This document shows positions 6,401-40,026 of a stretch of DNA of 64,000 nt, piece by piece. Numbering within the stretch: the stretch's first letter is position 1; each line of letters opens with the position of its first letter. Location: positions 62,001 to 126,000 of the forward strand of contig JAHHHI010000066.1 in assembly GCA_019359435.1 (NCBI GenBank), written 5' to 3'. A program made the position numbers and the translations under genes. The notes beneath the pieces were generated by a model, which searched no databases, was not told the origin of the DNA, and was given only the letters and a program-made list of their open reading frames with translations. This DNA comes from Kaiparowitsia implicata GSE-PSE-MK54-09C. Lineage in GTDB: Bacteria; Cyanobacteriota; Cyanobacteriia; Elainellales; Elainellaceae.

Positions 6401-9061
6401 AGAAGCACTGATATTGCCAGCAACAATGCTGTTCCTCAGGTTGACGCTACCGCTGTCACGCATGATGCCACCACCACCTCCACTCACAGCTGTGTTGTTG
6501 GTGATCGTGACATTAGTGAGGTTAGCAGTACCGCTATTGTAAATACCACCTCCCCCATTTTCCGTGGCTGTGTTGCCACTAATGGTGCTGTTGTTGATTG
6601 TGGTGGTTCCAGTATTGTAAATACCACCTCCCCCATTTTCCGTGGCTGTGTTGCCACTAATGGTGCTGTTGTTGATTGTGGTGGTTCCAGAGTTAAACAA
6701 GCCGCCACCGGCTGGTGAACGACTGTTGCGGATAGCAACCGTGTTCAAAGTCAAAGTCCCGCGATTGTCAATGCTACCACCGACAACAGTGCCAGCATTT
6801 GCGTTGGCAATGGTGAGGTTGTTGAAGATGACAGTACCGCTGTCGATGAAGAAGACGCGAGAGGTGTTGTTGCCGCTGAGGGTTAGTAAGTTAGCTCCAG
6901 TGCCGTTGATGGTGATGTTGCTGGTGATGCTTAACTGACCGCTGGTAAGAGTAATGGTGTCGGGGGTGGCATCTGTAAAGGTGTCTCCGGCAAAGGTGAT
7001 GGTGTCGGTTCCGGCGATCGCATTCGCATTCAAAATCGCCTGCCGCAGCGAGCCTTCTCCAGCGTCGGTGGTGTTGATGACAGTAAAGCCATTTTGGAGA
7101 ACGCTAATGGTGGCATTGGCGCTAGCGCCGACGGTGTAGTTGCTGCTAGTTGCTAGGTTTAGCCGTAGCGTTTCAGTAGGTTCGGCAAAACCCACGGCTT
7201 CGGCGAGTGCCGCCATCGACAGCGTGACCGAAGCTTGCCCATCGGGAATCACCAGCGTGAGGTTGCTGCCGGAAATAGAGACGCTGGCTCCGCTGAGGGT
7301 ATAGTCTGTGGCGGAGGTGGTGCTGCTGCCATCAATCGTTAGGTTAACGGTGAGGTCGCCGGTGGTATTGGCCCCGCGTGCGATCACAAATGAACCGCTG
7401 CTGCCCTCGGCAATAGAGAGAGTGGAGGAGCTCAGGTTGAGGCTGGGAAGCAAACTATTCGATTCAACGGCACCCATATCCACCGTGCCGCCCACAATGC
7501 GAGCCTGACCCCGCTGATCGGTAGCGGCCACGCTGGTATTGTTGCCTGCATTAGCAGCTCGACTGCCCGGCAGCAGCGCATGGGTTTGAGTCGGGCCACC
7601 GTTGTCGGCCAACGCTCCTAAATCTGAATTAATCGGAGCGGCGATCGTGCCGACAATGTTGCCATTCACGCCGTTGACAAAGCCCGAGCTGCCATTACTC
7701 CGGCCAATCAAGTTATGGCTAGGGTTGTTGAAGAAGCCTTGCACATCGGGAGAAGTCGCATGGTTGTTGCCAGCAATAATGCTGTTCCTTAAGTTGACGG
7801 TACCGCTATTGAGGATGCCGCCACCTGAGCTCGTGGCTGTGTTGTTGGTAATCGTGACATTGGTGAGGTTAGCAGTACTGCTAAGGACTCGAATACCACC
7901 TCCCACTGTGCCTGTGTTGCCACTAATGGTGCTATTCGTAACCGTAAGGGTGTTGCTAACATTGAAAATACCACCTCCCCCGTTGGTCGTCGTGGCTGTG
8001 TTGCCACTAATGGTGCTGTTGTTGATTATGGTGGTTCCAAAGGAAAACAGGCCGCCACCAGTGCCTGCACTGCTGTTGCGGATAGCAACCGCGTTCAAAG
8101 TCAAAGTCCCGCGATTATCGATGCCACCACCGAAACCAGTGCCAGCATTTCCGTTGGCAATGGTGAGGTTGTTGAGGTTGACGACAGAGCCGCTGCCGAT
8201 GAAGAAGACGCGAGAGGCGTTGTTGCCGCTGATGGTCAGTGAGTTAGCTCCGGTGCCGTCGATGGTGATGTTGCTGGTGATGACTAACTGACCGCTGGTA
8301 AGGGTTATGGTGTCGGGGGTCGCATCGGTAAAGGTGGCCCCGGCAAAGGTGATGATGTCATCTCCGGCGGCGGCATTCGCACTCGCAATAGCCTGTCGCA
8401 GCGAGCCTGCGCCATTGTCGTTGGTGTTGATCACCGTAAAGGTGGCGAGGGTATAGGTATACGCGGTTGCCGCAGAGAGCGCAAAGGGAGTTCCAGTTTC
8501 GATCGCCCCCGTGGCAAATTCCAGTGTCCAGTTACCGCCGAGTGCGGCGTTGCCCGTCAGGTCATTAGAGGCGGCGACATCGGCTCCGGTGAGCTGGCTC
8601 AAGGCTGAGACGAAGGATTCTCCCTGGGCGGTGGCGGCCACGTTGCAGCCGTAGAGCAAAATGTCGGCGTTTTCGGTGAGGGCGGTGCCCCATTGCTGCA
8701 GTTGGGGGGCATAGTCGTCTAGGTTGCTGCCGGTGAGCCAGTCGCGCCCAATTTGCAGACCGCCATCTACCCCGTGAGACACAATGTGGACGCTGGCAAT
8801 GCCCGAGTGCCCCTGTAACGTTTGGGTAATGCGGGCGATCGCATCCTCATCGGGATCTAGCACCACCACCTGAGTTTTGGCTGCGATGCCAGCCACCAAT
8901 TGCTCATAGTCCTCTACCCGCGAATCAACGAACAGTAGCGTTTGGGTCTGGCTGGAACCCGTTAGCGGCTGGGTTGCCAATGCGTCTGCACCTGTCAGTG
9001 TGCTGTAAGAATTTGCTGCAAGTGAAGCCGATGAAGAGGAAAGTGCTACGGGGTCAGACAT
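461..9061 (-). CDS. Giant DUF4347 / beta-helix / Calx-beta repeat protein (~2866 aa)
   Basis: Probably a secreted or surface-associated adhesin-like protein. Domain order from the N-terminus: DUF4347 (about residues 40-195; motifs VSHGVDGG and LLYGCNVA, a caspase-like His/Cys pair); three right-handed beta-helix modules beginning FTVIN at about residues 207, 658 and 1107, rich in NNSTISGNT rungs; Calx-beta-like domains after the first two modules; a cadherin-like stretch (1475-1620); a lectin-like domain with DKNGDGKPD (1625-1860); further cadherin-like repeats; and a run of Calx-beta domains (2080-2850). The ATG at 9061 is preferred because GGAG lies 6 nt upstream; an in-frame TTG at 9079 lacks this. 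No classical signal peptide and no RTX nonapeptides at the C-terminus are visible, so the export route is unknown. DUF4347 proteins of this architecture are common in cyanobacteria; substrate or partner unknown. Confidence 0.9.
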   Translation of the reverse strand: MSDPVALSSSSASLAANSYSTLTGADALATQPLTGSSQTQTLLFVDSRVEDYEQLVAGIAAKTQVVVLDPDEDAIARITQTLQGHSGIASVHIVSHGVDGGLQIGRDWLTGSNLDDYAPQLQQWGTALTENADILLYGCNVAATAQGESFVSALSQLTGADVAASNDLTGNAALGGNWTLEFATGAIETGTPFALSAATAYTYTLATFTVINTNDNGAGSLRQAIASANAAAGDDIITFAGATFTDATPDTITLTSGQLVITSNITIDGTGANSLTISGNNASRVFFIGSGSVVNLNNLTIANGNAGTGFGGGIDNRGTLTLNAVAIRNSSAGTGGGLFSFGTTIINNSTISGNTATTTNGGGGIFNVSNTLTVTNSTISGNTGTVGGGIRVLSSTANLTNVTITNNTATSSGGGILNSGTVNLRNSIIAGNNHATSPDVQGFFNNPSHNLIGRSNGSSGFVNGVNGNIVGTIAAPINSDLGALADNGGPTQTHALLPGSRAANAGNNTSVAATDQRGQARIVGGTVDMGAVESNSLLPSLNLSSSTLSIAEGSSGSFVIARGANTTGDLTVNLTIDGSSTTSATDYTLSGASVSISGSNLTLVIPDGQASVTLSMAALAEAVGFAEPTETLRLNLATSSNYTVGASANATISVLQNGFTVINTTDAGEGSLRQAILNANAIAGTDTITFAGDTFTDATPDTITLTSGQLSITSNITINGTGANLLTLSGNNTSRVFFIDSGTVIFNNLTIANANAGTVVGGSIDNRGTLTLNTVAIRNSRSPAGGGLFNSGTTTINNSTISGNTATENGGGGIYNTGTTTINNSTISGNTATENGGGGIYNSGTANLTNVTITNNTAVSGGGGGIMRDSGSVNLRNSIVAGNISASAPDVQGTFTNPGHNLIDKSDGSTGFANGVNGNIIGTIAAPVNSGLGALANNGGPTQTHALLTGSLAINAGNNALVVGSTDQRGNTRIVDGTVDMGAFEYPPTLTLSTSTPSIAEGSNGSFVISRGANTTGNLTVNLTIDGSSTTSATDYTLSGGSVSISGSNLTLVIPNGQASVTLSMAALVEAVGFAEPTETLRLNLATSSDYTVGASANATISILQNGFTVINTTDAGEGSLRQAILNANAIAGDDTITFTGATFEDDIPDTITLTSVITSNITINGTGANLLTLSGNNTSRVFFIVSGSVVNINNLTIANGDAGTGFGGGIENSGTLTLNAVAIRNSRAASGGGLYSFGTTTINNSTISGNTATGAGGGIYSAGGTILTVRNSTISGNTGSVGGGILHDNSTADLTNVTISNNTATNGGGGIFHFGGTADLANVTITNNTAVSGGGGGIMRDSGSVNLRNSIVAGNNHATSPDVLGTFNNLGHNLIGKSDGSTGFTHGTNGNIVGTIAAPVNPGLGALADNGGPTQTHALLTGSRAANAGNNALAVGITDQRGQARIVGGTVDIGAVESNILPLPTIALPTAGGISYTENAAAVVLDAGATLSNPGGIDFTNSTLAVDIATGALASDRLSIQSIGGVSLDGRRVLVGGTQIGTYTGGFGTEALVVAFNANATAPTVQTLLRAIAYSSVDEQLSTTASNRAIAVTLTANGETSTPVTKSVTVTGVNDAPLIGQRTVLYDGALNTAPGAQGWLAALSPGTVESVGGGATTLNTSANLALQAGYSRVVPTLNPDNGFVLSFRAQVLTEALAPAVGSGADKNGDGKPDRAGFSLIVVSNDNSRAIELGFTKTLGGGLRIWAQEDGTSQANPSAQASSDGDTRLFFTQAEGVDVTDPGLGAYDLAMVGDTYTLYLNGTAILSGKLRDYTAFVGTIDPYETPNLVFFGDNTTSASGSFSLAEVSVLKTTPLPNQTINEDSVTGPIPVGIFDLETPADALTVTASSDNPALVPNDPANVAIAGSGAGRTLTLTPAADAFGAAQISLTVGDGVATAVTTLSLTVNPVNDAPTVTLGGNQTVLSGSGAQSVTNWATGFNPGPANESAQTVDAYEVVSNTNPGLFAADPAIAPDGTLTYTPNNTSGTATIGVRVRDSGGIENGGVDVSTIQTFTITVNPQTVTITAPDAIATELPGNPGLFRIQRETSFGNLSVNLTLAGTASASDYVFSNNVTVSGSTLTVTIPDGQTSVDIGITPILDELVEGDETVALTLAGGQYAVDNAQNTATVEILDAPVVSISATDPTASEVPGNPGMFRLTRTGDLSQALTVNYTINGTATNGTDYNSLTGIATIAAGQSFVDVQVNPVLDELVEGNETVVLTLDDSSTYVVSSTQDNATVMIQDAPVISVIAQDAIASELPGNPGAFRLTRTGDLSQALTVNYTVNGTATNGTDYNSLTGTAVIPAGQSFVDVQVNPVLDELVEGDETVVLTLDDSSTYVVSSTQDDATVTIQDAPVISVIAQDAIASELPGNPGVFRLTRTGDLSQALTVNYTINGTATNGTDYSPLTGTATIAAGQAFVDVQVNPVLDELVEGDETVVLTLAGGQYAVNNAQNTAAVTIIDAPPVPDVERSLVAVSVLDGIINEHIPNSGIFRFNRTGDLSQALTVNYRVAGNATNGVDYDTLSGTAIIPVGQAFVDVVVNPINDTISELDETIRITLAEGDYRINTTAPEGTLTILANDPVISIRPIKATRREGNRGTQRFAFRVSLSHASDQLVAVRYRTLDGTATVADGDYSRVTPTQIKFRPGMTHQRVTVLVRGDTQFERNEKFFVRLSNPQSGSLNPNALRSVGRIRNDDARTAYDFGAPSFRVQEGDQLNTVRIPLIRSGNVSQAGSVKVRLLDGSAIAGRDFLGGVTRVNFAAGQTTAWVPLRVLGNTAYQPDRNLTMALFGFSHVGAYSKQRAATVTLVDDDILFQRGVGFSGFRP
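1400..2480 (-). repeat. Calx-beta domain array with 330-bp period
   Basis: The same ~55-bp block encoding RTGDLSQALTVNY recurs at about 1761, 2091 and 2421, giving an exact 330-bp (110-codon) period. A more diverged unit lies about 350 bp from the first. Units carry GDETV or GNETV motifs typical of Calx-beta calcium-binding folds. Near-identity between units suggests ongoing homogenisation. Confidence 0.85.
4640..8440 (-). repeat. Three ~1.35-kb coding modules in the giant gene
   Basis: Each module starts with the residues FTVIN followed by a GSLRQAI motif and runs through beta-helix rungs. Matching points fall at about 8436, 7083 and 5736, giving periods of 1353 and 1347 bp, both multiples of three. 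Modules 2 and 3 are nearly identical at DNA level in their first and last parts; module 1 is more diverged at its start. The third module is not followed by the Calx-beta-like domain that closes the first two. Confidence 0.85.
6535..6690 (-). repeat. Perfect 78-bp tandem duplication (one beta-helix rung)
   Basis: Copies 6535-6612 and 6613-6690 look identical base for base. Each encodes 26 residues including NNSTISGNTATENGGGGIYN, about one coil of the beta helix. The absence of even synonymous differences implies a very recent duplication or gene conversion. Confidence 0.9.
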
Positions 9062-37534: not shown

Positions 37535-39391
37535 ATGGGAAAGAACTGGGCAATTTGTATTGGGATCAACGATTACTACAATCTCAAGCCCCTTCATTAT
37601 GCGGTGCAAGATGCCGCCTCAATTCGGGATTTCTTTCAAACAGACATAGGGTTTGAGGAGGTCTTTTACTTTGCCGACGACGCTCCCCCTATTAACACTC
37701 CTCGCGGTTCTATGCGATCGCTCCCGACTTACGCAAATCTCAAACGCTTTTTTCGTGAGCGATTCAAGCAACCATTTTTGTCTAGTGGTGACAATTTGTG
37801 GTTCTTCTTTGCAGGACATGGAGAGCCGCACGAAGGGCATGACTATCTCATGCCCATAGATGTAGACCCTGGCAACATTCATGAAACCGCTCTGCGCGTG
37901 GGAGACATTACCGCCTGGTTGCGCAACTGCGGAGCCGATAATGTAGTGCTGCTTATTGATGCCTGTCGCCAACAGGGGCGTCGGAGCGGGTTGGGACTTG
38001 GCACCGAAGAGCAACAAGGCGTGATCACGATGTATTCGTGTAGCCCCCGCGAGTCATCTTACGAAATTGACGAATTGCAGCATGGGGCGTTTACCTATGC
38101 CCTTTTAGAGGGCCTTCGCCTCCAAGGATCGTCAAATTGTGCCACCGTTGAACGGCTGCATCACCACCTGCGCCATCGAGTTCCTTCCTTAAATCATCAA
38201 TACCGCAAGCCAGTGCAAACGCCGTATGCAGCCGTTGAGCCACTGTCTAAAAATCACTTCATTTTGCTACCCGAGAAGGCGACGCTTCAAGATGTGACAG
38301 CGCTTAAGGTTGACGCTCAAGCAGCAGAACTAGAGCATCATCTAGACCTTGCTGAACAACTGTGGATCAGAGTGCTGTCTGCATCGCGCGCAGATATGCA
38401 AGCCATTAAAGCCTTGCAACGAATTGCCCTTAATCGGGCGAATCAATCGGTTGCAGGTCAATCTGTATCAGTGCCCACTGCCGGCAGTCGCCGCGTTGCA
38501 GACTCAGTCTCAGAACCCAAGCCAGAGACCCAACTGCTCCGCATCCAAACGCCGCCGATACCAAGCTTTGAGTTTGAAGTGGTGACTGTCAATGCCCACG
38601 GTCACATTGATACCCGTGTAAAGAAGAGAACAGACTATCGCCGCGAAGAGTTGGGCAGTGGCGTCACGCTGGACTTGGTGATGGTTCCGGGGGGCAGCTT
38701 TATGATGGGTTCTCCCGATAGTGAAGTGGGTGACTCTGATGAGAAACCGCAGCATGAGGTGAAGGTTCCGTCTTTTTTAATGGGAAAGTATGCGGTAACA
38801 CAGGCGCAGTGGAAGGCGGTGGCAGCGCTGCCCCAAGTTGCGCGCGACCTAGAGGCTGACCCCTCTCACTTCAAAGGCCCCAACCGCCCGGTAGAGCAGG
38901 TGAGCTGGGGTGATGCAGTGGAGTTTTGTGAACGGCTGTCTCAAAGAACAGGCAAGCTCTATCGACTGCCCAGCGAAGCAGAGTGGGAATATGCGTGCCG
39001 TGCAGGCACCACAACCCCCTTTCATTTTGGGGAAACCATCACCACAGATCTGGGAAACTATAACGGCAATGACACCTATGGCAATGGACCAAAAGGAACA
39101 TACCGCGAGCAAACTACAGACGTGGGCACATTTTCTGCCAATGCCTTTGGTTTATACGACATGCATGGCAATGTATGGGAGTGGTGCTTAGACCACTGGT
39201 ATGACAACTATAGCGGTGCCCCGACCGATGGCAGCGCGTGGCTTTCTTCAAATGAAGACTCCAGACGGCTGCTGCGGGGCGGCTCCTGGTACAACTACCC
39301 TTGGTCCTGTCGCTCGGCCTATCGCTTCAGGAACGCGCGCGATAGCAGGCTCGACAACCTTGGGTTTCGGGTTGTCTGCGGCTCCTCGTGA
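37535..39391 (+). CDS. Orthocaspase - formylglycine-generating-enzyme (FGE/SUMF1) fusion, possible DGR target
   Basis: A 618-residue fusion. Residues 1-235 form a caspase-like peptidase: MGKNWAICIGINDYYNLKPL, His95 in FFFAGHGEP and Cys144 in LLIDACRQQG. A helical, Ala-rich linker (about 250-320) follows. Residues 375-615 are an FGE-sulfatase C-type-lectin-like domain: MVPGGSFMMGSPDSE, YRLPSEAEWEYACRAGTT, FGLYDMHGNVWEWCLDHWYD, LLRGGSWYNYPWSCRSAYRF and LGFRVVCGSS. Such caspase-FGE fusions in cyanobacteria are known as diversified targets of retroelements. The codons in 39290-39358 show that pattern (separate entry). Cytoplasmic, no signal peptide. The start is the only ATG at the family N-terminus; its ribosome-binding site is poor. 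A Pepco-like gene follows 257 bp downstream. Confidence 0.92.
   Translation: MGKNWAICIGINDYYNLKPLHYAVQDAASIRDFFQTDIGFEEVFYFADDAPPINTPRGSMRSLPTYANLKRFFRERFKQPFLSSGDNLWFFFAGHGEPHEGHDYLMPIDVDPGNIHETALRVGDITAWLRNCGADNVVLLIDACRQQGRRSGLGLGTEEQQGVITMYSCSPRESSYEIDELQHGAFTYALLEGLRLQGSSNCATVERLHHHLRHRVPSLNHQYRKPVQTPYAAVEPLSKNHFILLPEKATLQDVTALKVDAQAAELEHHLDLAEQLWIRVLSASRADMQAIKALQRIALNRANQSVAGQSVSVPTAGSRRVADSVSEPKPETQLLRIQTPPIPSFEFEVVTVNAHGHIDTRVKKRTDYRREELGSGVTLDLVMVPGGSFMMGSPDSEVGDSDEKPQHEVKVPSFLMGKYAVTQAQWKAVAALPQVARDLEADPSHFKGPNRPVEQVSWGDAVEFCERLSQRTGKLYRLPSEAEWEYACRAGTTTPFHFGETITTDLGNYNGNDTYGNGPKGTYREQTTDVGTFSANAFGLYDMHGNVWEWCLDHWYDNYSGAPTDGSAWLSSNEDSRRLLRGGSWYNYPWSCRSAYRFRNARDSRLDNLGFRVVCGSS
39290..39358 (+). 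other. Candidate diversity-generating-retroelement variable region
   Basis: The codons are TAC AAC TAC CCT TGG TCC, then TGT CGC TCG GCC TAT CGC, then TTC AGG AAC GCG CGC GAT, then AGC AGG CTC GAC AAC. Ten codons have the form NNC (TAC, AAC, TAC, TCC, TTC, AAC, AGC, CTC, GAC, AAC) at positions where known cyanobacterial template repeats carry AAC; TGG and TAT fit AGG and AAT. Fixed stretches GGSW, CRSA and LGFRVV flank them. This is what adenine-specific mutagenesis of a template would leave. No template or reverse transcriptase is in the window, and ordinary FGE domains share part of this motif, so it remains a hypothesis. Confidence 0.5.
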
Positions 39392-39453
39392 CTCTTGCTT
39401 GCCCTCTGCTCTTTTGCCCTCTTGCTCTTTACACTTCTTTACATTCTTCGGGT

Positions 39454-39484
39454 TCGCGCGTAGCGCGATCAAAATTTAAATTTT
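39454..39484 (+). promoter_or_regulatory. Hairpin and AT palindrome downstream of the orthocaspase-FGE gene
   Basis: TCGCGC GTA GCGCGA (39454-39468) is a 6-bp-arm hairpin with a three-base loop, followed after two bases by the perfect palindrome AAAATTTAAATTTT (39471-39484). It may be a terminator. Structured DNA also follows the variable region in DGR targets, but this one is ~95 bp away, further than usual. The 257-bp gap also has a CT-rich stretch at 39390-39445. Confidence 0.5.
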
Positions 39485-39648
39485 AGAGTGGGTGACTTTA
39501 CCAGGTTGTATGTATGGCTGACGATTTACCAATTATTCAAAAAACTACGATCTGATCACCGGATGCACTAGCCTGGTTGGCACGCCTTGCTAAACGGGTG
39601 CTTCATTCTTGTAGCGTTTAACCATTCATATTTAGGCAACACTTGCAC

Positions 39649-40026
39649 ATGTCAGAAGATCACCAGCTCTGGATCGTAGCCGACACCGAAGAGGTGGAAG
39701 AAATCGTGGAGATTGAAGGCCGCCGGTCGAGCACCGACCGGGGGGGTGGCTTTGGGTTGCCAGATACCGTAGAAACAGTGAGGACAGTGGCTCGGCGCAA
39801 GCGGGTTTCGCTAGATGCGCAGGCGCTCAAGACCCAAATGGAAAGTATGCTGGCGATCGTAAATGACCTGTTTGGTCAGGCCGATGCAGCGGCAGCCGGG
39901 TTGCGGCTAGACGAGGTGGAACTGTCGGTGGAGATCAACACCGAGGGGCATCTCAGCATTGTGGGCAATGGTGGCAAATTGGGCAACAGCGGCGGCATCA
40001 AGCTAAAGTTCACCCGCCCTCATTAA
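39649..40026 (+). CDS. Pepco-like (peptidase co-occurring) small protein
   Basis: About 125 residues. The C-terminal half (LRLDEVELSVEINTEGHLSI to GGIKLKFTRP) matches the pattern of the Pepco/CU044_2847-type domain, a glycine-rich beta fold that occurs next to trypsin- or caspase-like peptidases in predicted conflict systems. The N-terminal half is acidic and includes a Gly-rich turn (STDRGGGFGLP). Its position just after an orthocaspase gene fits that role. The ATG at 39649 is preferred over an in-frame TTG six bases earlier. The assignment is by motif recognition and context. Confidence 0.7.
   Translation: MSEDHQLWIVADTEEVEEIVEIEGRRSSTDRGGGFGLPDTVETVRTVARRKRVSLDAQALKTQMESMLAIVNDLFGQADAAAAGLRLDEVELSVEINTEGHLSIVGNGGKLGNSGGIKLKFTRPH

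Follow-up and report, generated by a model that had tools for sequence, protein, structure and literature searches.

An orthocaspase-FGE gene of Kaiparowitsia implicata is probably the orphaned target of a deleted DGR cassette

The window analysed here is a stretch of 64,000 nucleotides from the cyanobacterium Kaiparowitsia implicata GSE-PSE-MK54-09C (contig JAHHHI010000066.1, positions 62,001 to 126,000). At 37535..39391 on its + strand, the list of open reading frames and Pfam give a gene for a caspase C14 plus FGE/C-lectin-fold protein of 618 aa (Peptidase_C14, PF00656, 1.7e-23; FGE-sulfatase, 3.8e-58), with its stop codon at 39389-39391. The orthocaspase domain (37544..38227, + strand, Pfam Peptidase_C14) has a candidate catalytic His in a FAGHG motif (codon 37817-37819) and a candidate Cys in a DACR motif (codon 37964-37966), to which we attribute catalytic roles from knowledge of the family. 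With the C14 domain and its His-Cys dyad present, the protein is assigned to the orthocaspases (C14) and is predicted to be a protease. The FGE-sulfatase/C-lectin-fold domain (38672..39376, + strand, from Pfam and alignment) runs to residue 614 of 618, and the variable region (VR) of the gene makes up the 3' end of this C-lectin-fold (CLec) domain. Cys336 and Cys341 are the active-site cysteines of human FGE. In an alignment to human FGE chains this pair falls opposite a gap and a proline, and since both cysteines are missing, the domain is not a formylglycine-generating enzyme. It is a sequence relative of Treponema TvpA (2y3c, 1.2e-21), and on this similarity is classed as a C-lectin-like binding module, as in TvpA.

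Three features follow 3' of the caspase-FGE gene: a hairpin at 39454-39468, a stub of avd, the accessory gene of diversity-generating retroelements (DGRs), at 39514-39558 and a Pepco-domain gene at 39649..40026 (+ strand; Pfam PF24393, 1.5e-30), a peptidase-associated conflict-system partner. The caspase-FGE gene and the adjoining Pepco gene fit the protease conflict systems described for multicellular bacteria (PMC7159879, PMC10907252).

The VR core (39290..39361, + strand) has the pattern of a DGR target, with codons of the template types AAC/AGG/AAT diversified and every other codon fixed. In the frame of 37535, the codons at 39287-39370 read TGG TAC AAC TAC CCT TGG TCC TGT CGC TCG GCC TAT CGC TTC AGG AAC GCG CGC GAT AGC AGG CTC GAC AAC CTT GGG TTT CGG. 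An earlier note on this DNA had counted ten NNC codons, together with TGG and TAT, where cyanobacterial template repeats (TRs) have AAC/AGG/AAT, and the count is exact; the fixed flanks GGSW, CRSA and LGFRVV also lie where it placed them. Codons ending in C make up 28% of the upstream FGE domain and 10 of 10 at these sites of the VR, a difference with a naive p of ~3e-6 that ignores the conserved FGE motif. A consensus TR was built from 16 template repeats, all from other genomes, which served as independent templates; the VR mismatches it at 16 of 29 adenines and, at codon positions 1 and 2, at 2 of 33 non-adenines. Most of these TRs belong to TR/VR pairs found in relatives, and nearly all differences within the pairs are at TR adenines; thus, the method recovers known DGRs.

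A second caspase-FGE gene of the same genome, on contig C59, is the nearest paralogue. The two VRs differ at 16 bases, which fall on 13 of the 29 consensus-template adenines and on 3 of the 64 other sites (Fisher p = 8e-6). Third-base changes are many under ordinary divergence and almost none under homing from one template. The ratio of differences at codon positions 1 and 2 to those at position 3 is 14:2 in the VR, compared to 46:54 in the upstream FGE domain (p 0.002). Two VR differences are not template-adenine changes (the third base of GAC/GTA, and CTT/CTC). The restriction to template adenines, which the earlier note had proposed as a check, supports past diversification. An EgtB-type gene of the FGE family in this genome (contig C108), an ordinary relative, does not have the VR pattern, and a search of plasmids with the VR sequence gave no match.

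The invariant 3' part of the VR (39362..39399, + strand) continues past the stop codon to GACTCTTGC and is identical in the C59 paralogue. Its end matches the point where TR/VR homology stops (..ACTCTT) in intact DGRs, and it is probably an IMH-like element at which mutagenic homing would have started. The DNA hairpin TCGCGC-GTA-GCGCGA (39454..39468, + strand), a putative target-side recognition-type element, was identified from motif counts and a ssDNA fold (z -2.2). The motif GCGC-N3/4-GCGC occurs no more than 130 bases 3' of the repeat in 29 of 52 VRs, in none of 17 TRs and in 1.2% of random 130-mers from the same loci, a contrast between VR and TR that favours a target-side function, short of proof. 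The hairpin could alternatively be a terminator, as a short GC stem precedes A/T-rich sequence. No Rfam families were found within 39000-40000. Homing of the Bordetella phage BPP-1 DGR requires a hairpin just 3' of the VR (PMC3240598), and this system is like the present locus in its adenine mutagenesis, its hairpin, and its avd and reverse transcriptase (RT) genes. However, the BPP-1 target is a phage tail protein, and its hairpin has an 8-bp stem and a 4-nt loop, compared to a 6-bp stem and a 3-nt loop here.

The avd pseudogene stub (39514..39558, + strand) is 45 bases long and begins 122 bases 3' of the caspase-FGE stop codon. It reads MADDLPIIQKT, then after a one-base deletion YDLI, where homology ends; 17 avd genes of such cassettes start with (D/E)LPIIQKTYDLI or near it. 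The stub was first spotted by eye in the sequence, and afterwards tested with a profile built from the nucleotide sequences of the 17 avd starts, which was needed because the stub is too short for protein search. Across the window and other loci of its own genome, the profile gives the stub an E of 7.9e-7 (nhmmer), with the next hit at E 2.1. An avd protein search of the genome found no intact avd, the best match (E 0.8) being elsewhere. Between the stub and the Pepco gene lies a deletion scar (39559..39648, + strand) from which the remainder of avd, the RT and the TR are absent. Part of it (39562-39609) is weakly like the end of the trailer of a template RNA, at a score reached by 7 of 1000 shuffles and by 22 of 600 random 89-mers of the window; given these frequencies, we do not interpret the right edge as the end of a TR trailer. 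Other caspase-FGE-Pepco loci without RT (L095, L097, L112, L118 and G037) yielded no avd stubs. The stub lies at the position expected from two relatives (G013 and L151, below), and its placement 122 bases past the stop codon implies that a cassette was most likely once present in cis and later deleted. Thus the suggestion that this gene was a remote target is probably wrong for 37535-39391.

The intact state of such a locus is seen in Synechococcales cyanobacterium M55_K2018_004 (G013; locus L065 = L099), of the same family, where a complete target-avd-RT-TR arrangement is found at the orthologous caspase-FGE gene. The caspase is 64% identical, and the TR/VR pair differs at 19 sites, all of them TR adenines. 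The target gene is orthologous, the VR has the same length, and the target-side non-coding flank, hairpin included, is 85% identical over 80 bases; the two loci differ in that the cassette is intact in G013, and that Pepco is upstream in G013 but downstream in K. implicata. A partly deleted version is found in Leptolyngbyaceae RM1_1_2 (L151), where the caspase-FGE gene is followed by an avd fragment of ~60 codons and then Pepco, the same order as here; no DGR-type RT was found in that genome. In FACHB-502 (L095:7624-7895) and in G002 (L178:5515-5756), the target gene runs straight into the conserved trailer of the template RNA (nhmmer 2e-46 and 2e-29, respectively). No DGR RT was detected in either genome, and G002 is a one-contig genome without any RT match to Brt. 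These fusions look like what recombination between VR and TR, removing avd and RT, would leave, and the direct VR/TR repeats may make the cassette easy to lose. Where the cassette has been lost, the solo targets would keep recognisable scars, the avd stub (K. implicata and L151) or the TR-trailer fusion (L095 and G002).

The conserved trailer follows the TR, about 190 bases 3' of it, at L063, L065, L066 and 13 other TR loci, and is probably part of the template RNA in cyanobacteria. In genome G016 (contig C37; L177, around 6430-7470), some 314 bases separate the two members of an intact TR/VR pair. The 16 kb of sequence read there contain neither avd nor RT, and the genome gave no clear match to a DGR-type RT. 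In Microcystis, caspase-FGE genes are directly followed by pieces of the C-terminus of a DGR RT (L123:3448-3660 and L149:8032-8364), which probably represent further decayed cassettes.

The draft genome of K. implicata (109 contigs, 99.92% complete, 4.4% contamination) was searched for an active DGR with three RT queries, PF00078, BPP-1 Brt and a cyanobacterial DGR RT. No DGR RT was found, in a draft where an assembly gap could hide a whole DGR (about 2 kb); the only RT domain, matched by all three queries, belongs to an RT-Cas1 protein. This RT-Cas1 fusion lies at 4810-5517 of contig C44 (L013). Of 79 genomes searched with Brt, about 17 give clear DGR-RT matches. With all adenines free and 3 mismatches allowed, a TR search of the K. 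implicata genome matched only the two VRs, and a generic cyanobacterial TR pattern, which has matches in 30 of the 79 genomes, has none here. With neither DGR RT nor TR found, diversification of the caspase has probably ceased. The earlier note had held that the gene is, or was, a DGR target: the past tense is well supported by the adenine-limited differences, and the present tense is contradicted, draft permitting, by these searches of the full genome, since the lack of a DGR RT is an outcome that the note itself had named as refuting. Likewise, its self-diversifying caspase fits the orthologues in other cyanobacteria but not this genome today.

These searches bear directly on the alternative that the gene is an active remote target, with an RT and TR elsewhere (in an assembly gap, on a plasmid or in a phage) still rewriting the VR in trans. 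The VR, its IMH-like end and the hairpin do look intact, the little synonymous divergence in the paralogue VR suggests fairly recent homing, and trans-diversified targets have been reported in Thiohalocapsa PB-PSB1 (PMC10907252). However, an active remote target is improbable where three queries find no DGR RT and no TR is found in a 99.92%-complete genome, and where the adjoining cassette is visibly destroyed.

The FGE modules of the window gene (contig C71) and the C59 gene, compared over 38672-39391 of the window and L011:9130-9852, share 80% identity upstream of the VR, against 38% for the caspase domains. The FGE module therefore moves between caspase genes within the genome, and cyanobacterial CLec modules have been described as mobile inside genomes (PMC7517822). 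This mobility raises the alternative that a module, VR and 3' flank included, had been diversified before it arrived as a copy, by horizontal transfer or from a different locus, and that the locus itself never hosted a DGR; if the copy extended ~170 bases beyond the stop codon, it could even have brought the avd stub along. This has little probability in view of the cis position of the stub and of the G013 orthologue, which has its cassette exactly there. The C59 paralogue, which lacks any remnant of avd, is more plausible as a former remote target than the window gene. On contig C6 (L012:6397-9663, - strand), the genome has a third FGE gene of the VR type, which adjoins genes for a MoxR-type AAA ATPase, a VMAP-C/EAD1 protein and a trypsin/EAD1 protein, a ternary conflict system; this sensor gene also has a GCGC hairpin after its VR, in a genome where no DGR RT was found. 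Finally, that conservation in the FGE family plus relaxed or diversifying selection on an exposed loop produced the NNC pattern is hardly credible: GGSW, CRSA and GFR are motifs general to the FGE family and the exposed sites coincide with the template-adenine sites, but such selection fails to predict the C-ending codons at 10 of 10 sites, the presence of only two third-base differences, the hairpin confined to VRs or the adjoining avd stub, and the EgtB-type gene lacks the pattern.

The caspase-FGE gene is thus, with good though not full confidence, an orphaned and frozen DGR target whose former cis cassette has been deleted. The ancestor would have had an avd-RT-TR cassette between the caspase-FGE and Pepco genes. 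The RT would have copied the TR with random bases at adenines, and the copies would have homed into the 3' end of the caspase-FGE gene, guided by the 3' end of the VR and the hairpin 3' of it; some 14 codons on the binding face of this C-lectin-like domain would have been varied in this way. A deletion would then have taken the cassette away, with the first ~15 codons of avd remaining, frameshifted. Since the genome yielded no other DGR RT, the VR that the sensor has at present is probably a single, fixed variant. The gene presumably continues to function, and a ligand on the VR face may release or direct the N-terminal caspase.

Caspase-CLec DGR targets, remote targets and one remnant target have already been described (Vallota-Eastman et al. 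2020, PMC7517822). The cyanobacterial DGR-diversified orthocaspase-CLec proteins of that study are like the present one in their N-terminal caspase, C-terminal CLec/FGE domain, VR at the 3' end and paralogues dispersed over the genome; they differ in that here no RT or TR was detected in the genome and the adjoining cassette is down to an avd stub. In the same study, all3226 of Nostoc PCC 7120 resembles the K. implicata gene as a target that keeps remnant TR-VR homology but has no RT in its vicinity. However, all3226 is reported to have neither RT gene nor pseudogene nearby, with two DGRs elsewhere in its genome, whereas here a cassette pseudogene stands beside the target and no DGR RT was found genome-wide. 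Removal of the machinery once a variant is fixed has been suggested for a cyanobacterial DGR target lacking a nearby RT gene or pseudogene (PMC7517822). Thiohalocapsa PB-PSB1 similarly has FGE/CLec sensors tied to proteases and MoxR-vWA-VMAP ternary systems (PMC10907252; PMC7159879), but its DGRs are reported to diversify in nature, while the machinery of K. implicata appears lost. To our knowledge, from a short literature search on relic DGRs, three features are new: the avd stub, an RT-less genome that has three genes of the VR type, and the scars of pop-out type seen in relatives.

It can be speculated, although we consider it unlikely, that cyanobacteria repeatedly diversify and then freeze such sensors, a useful VR being fixed and the cassette lost, in certain lineages through VR/TR recombination, so that loss would be recurrent and perhaps selected, not plain decay. 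In K. implicata the scar can be seen next to the target, and the genome has no detectable DGR RT; VR-like genes should not be labelled active DGR targets unless RT and TR are found. Relatives have similar loci in which the cassette is intact, partly deleted or deleted in full, and the fate of hypervariable caspase sensors is therefore testable.
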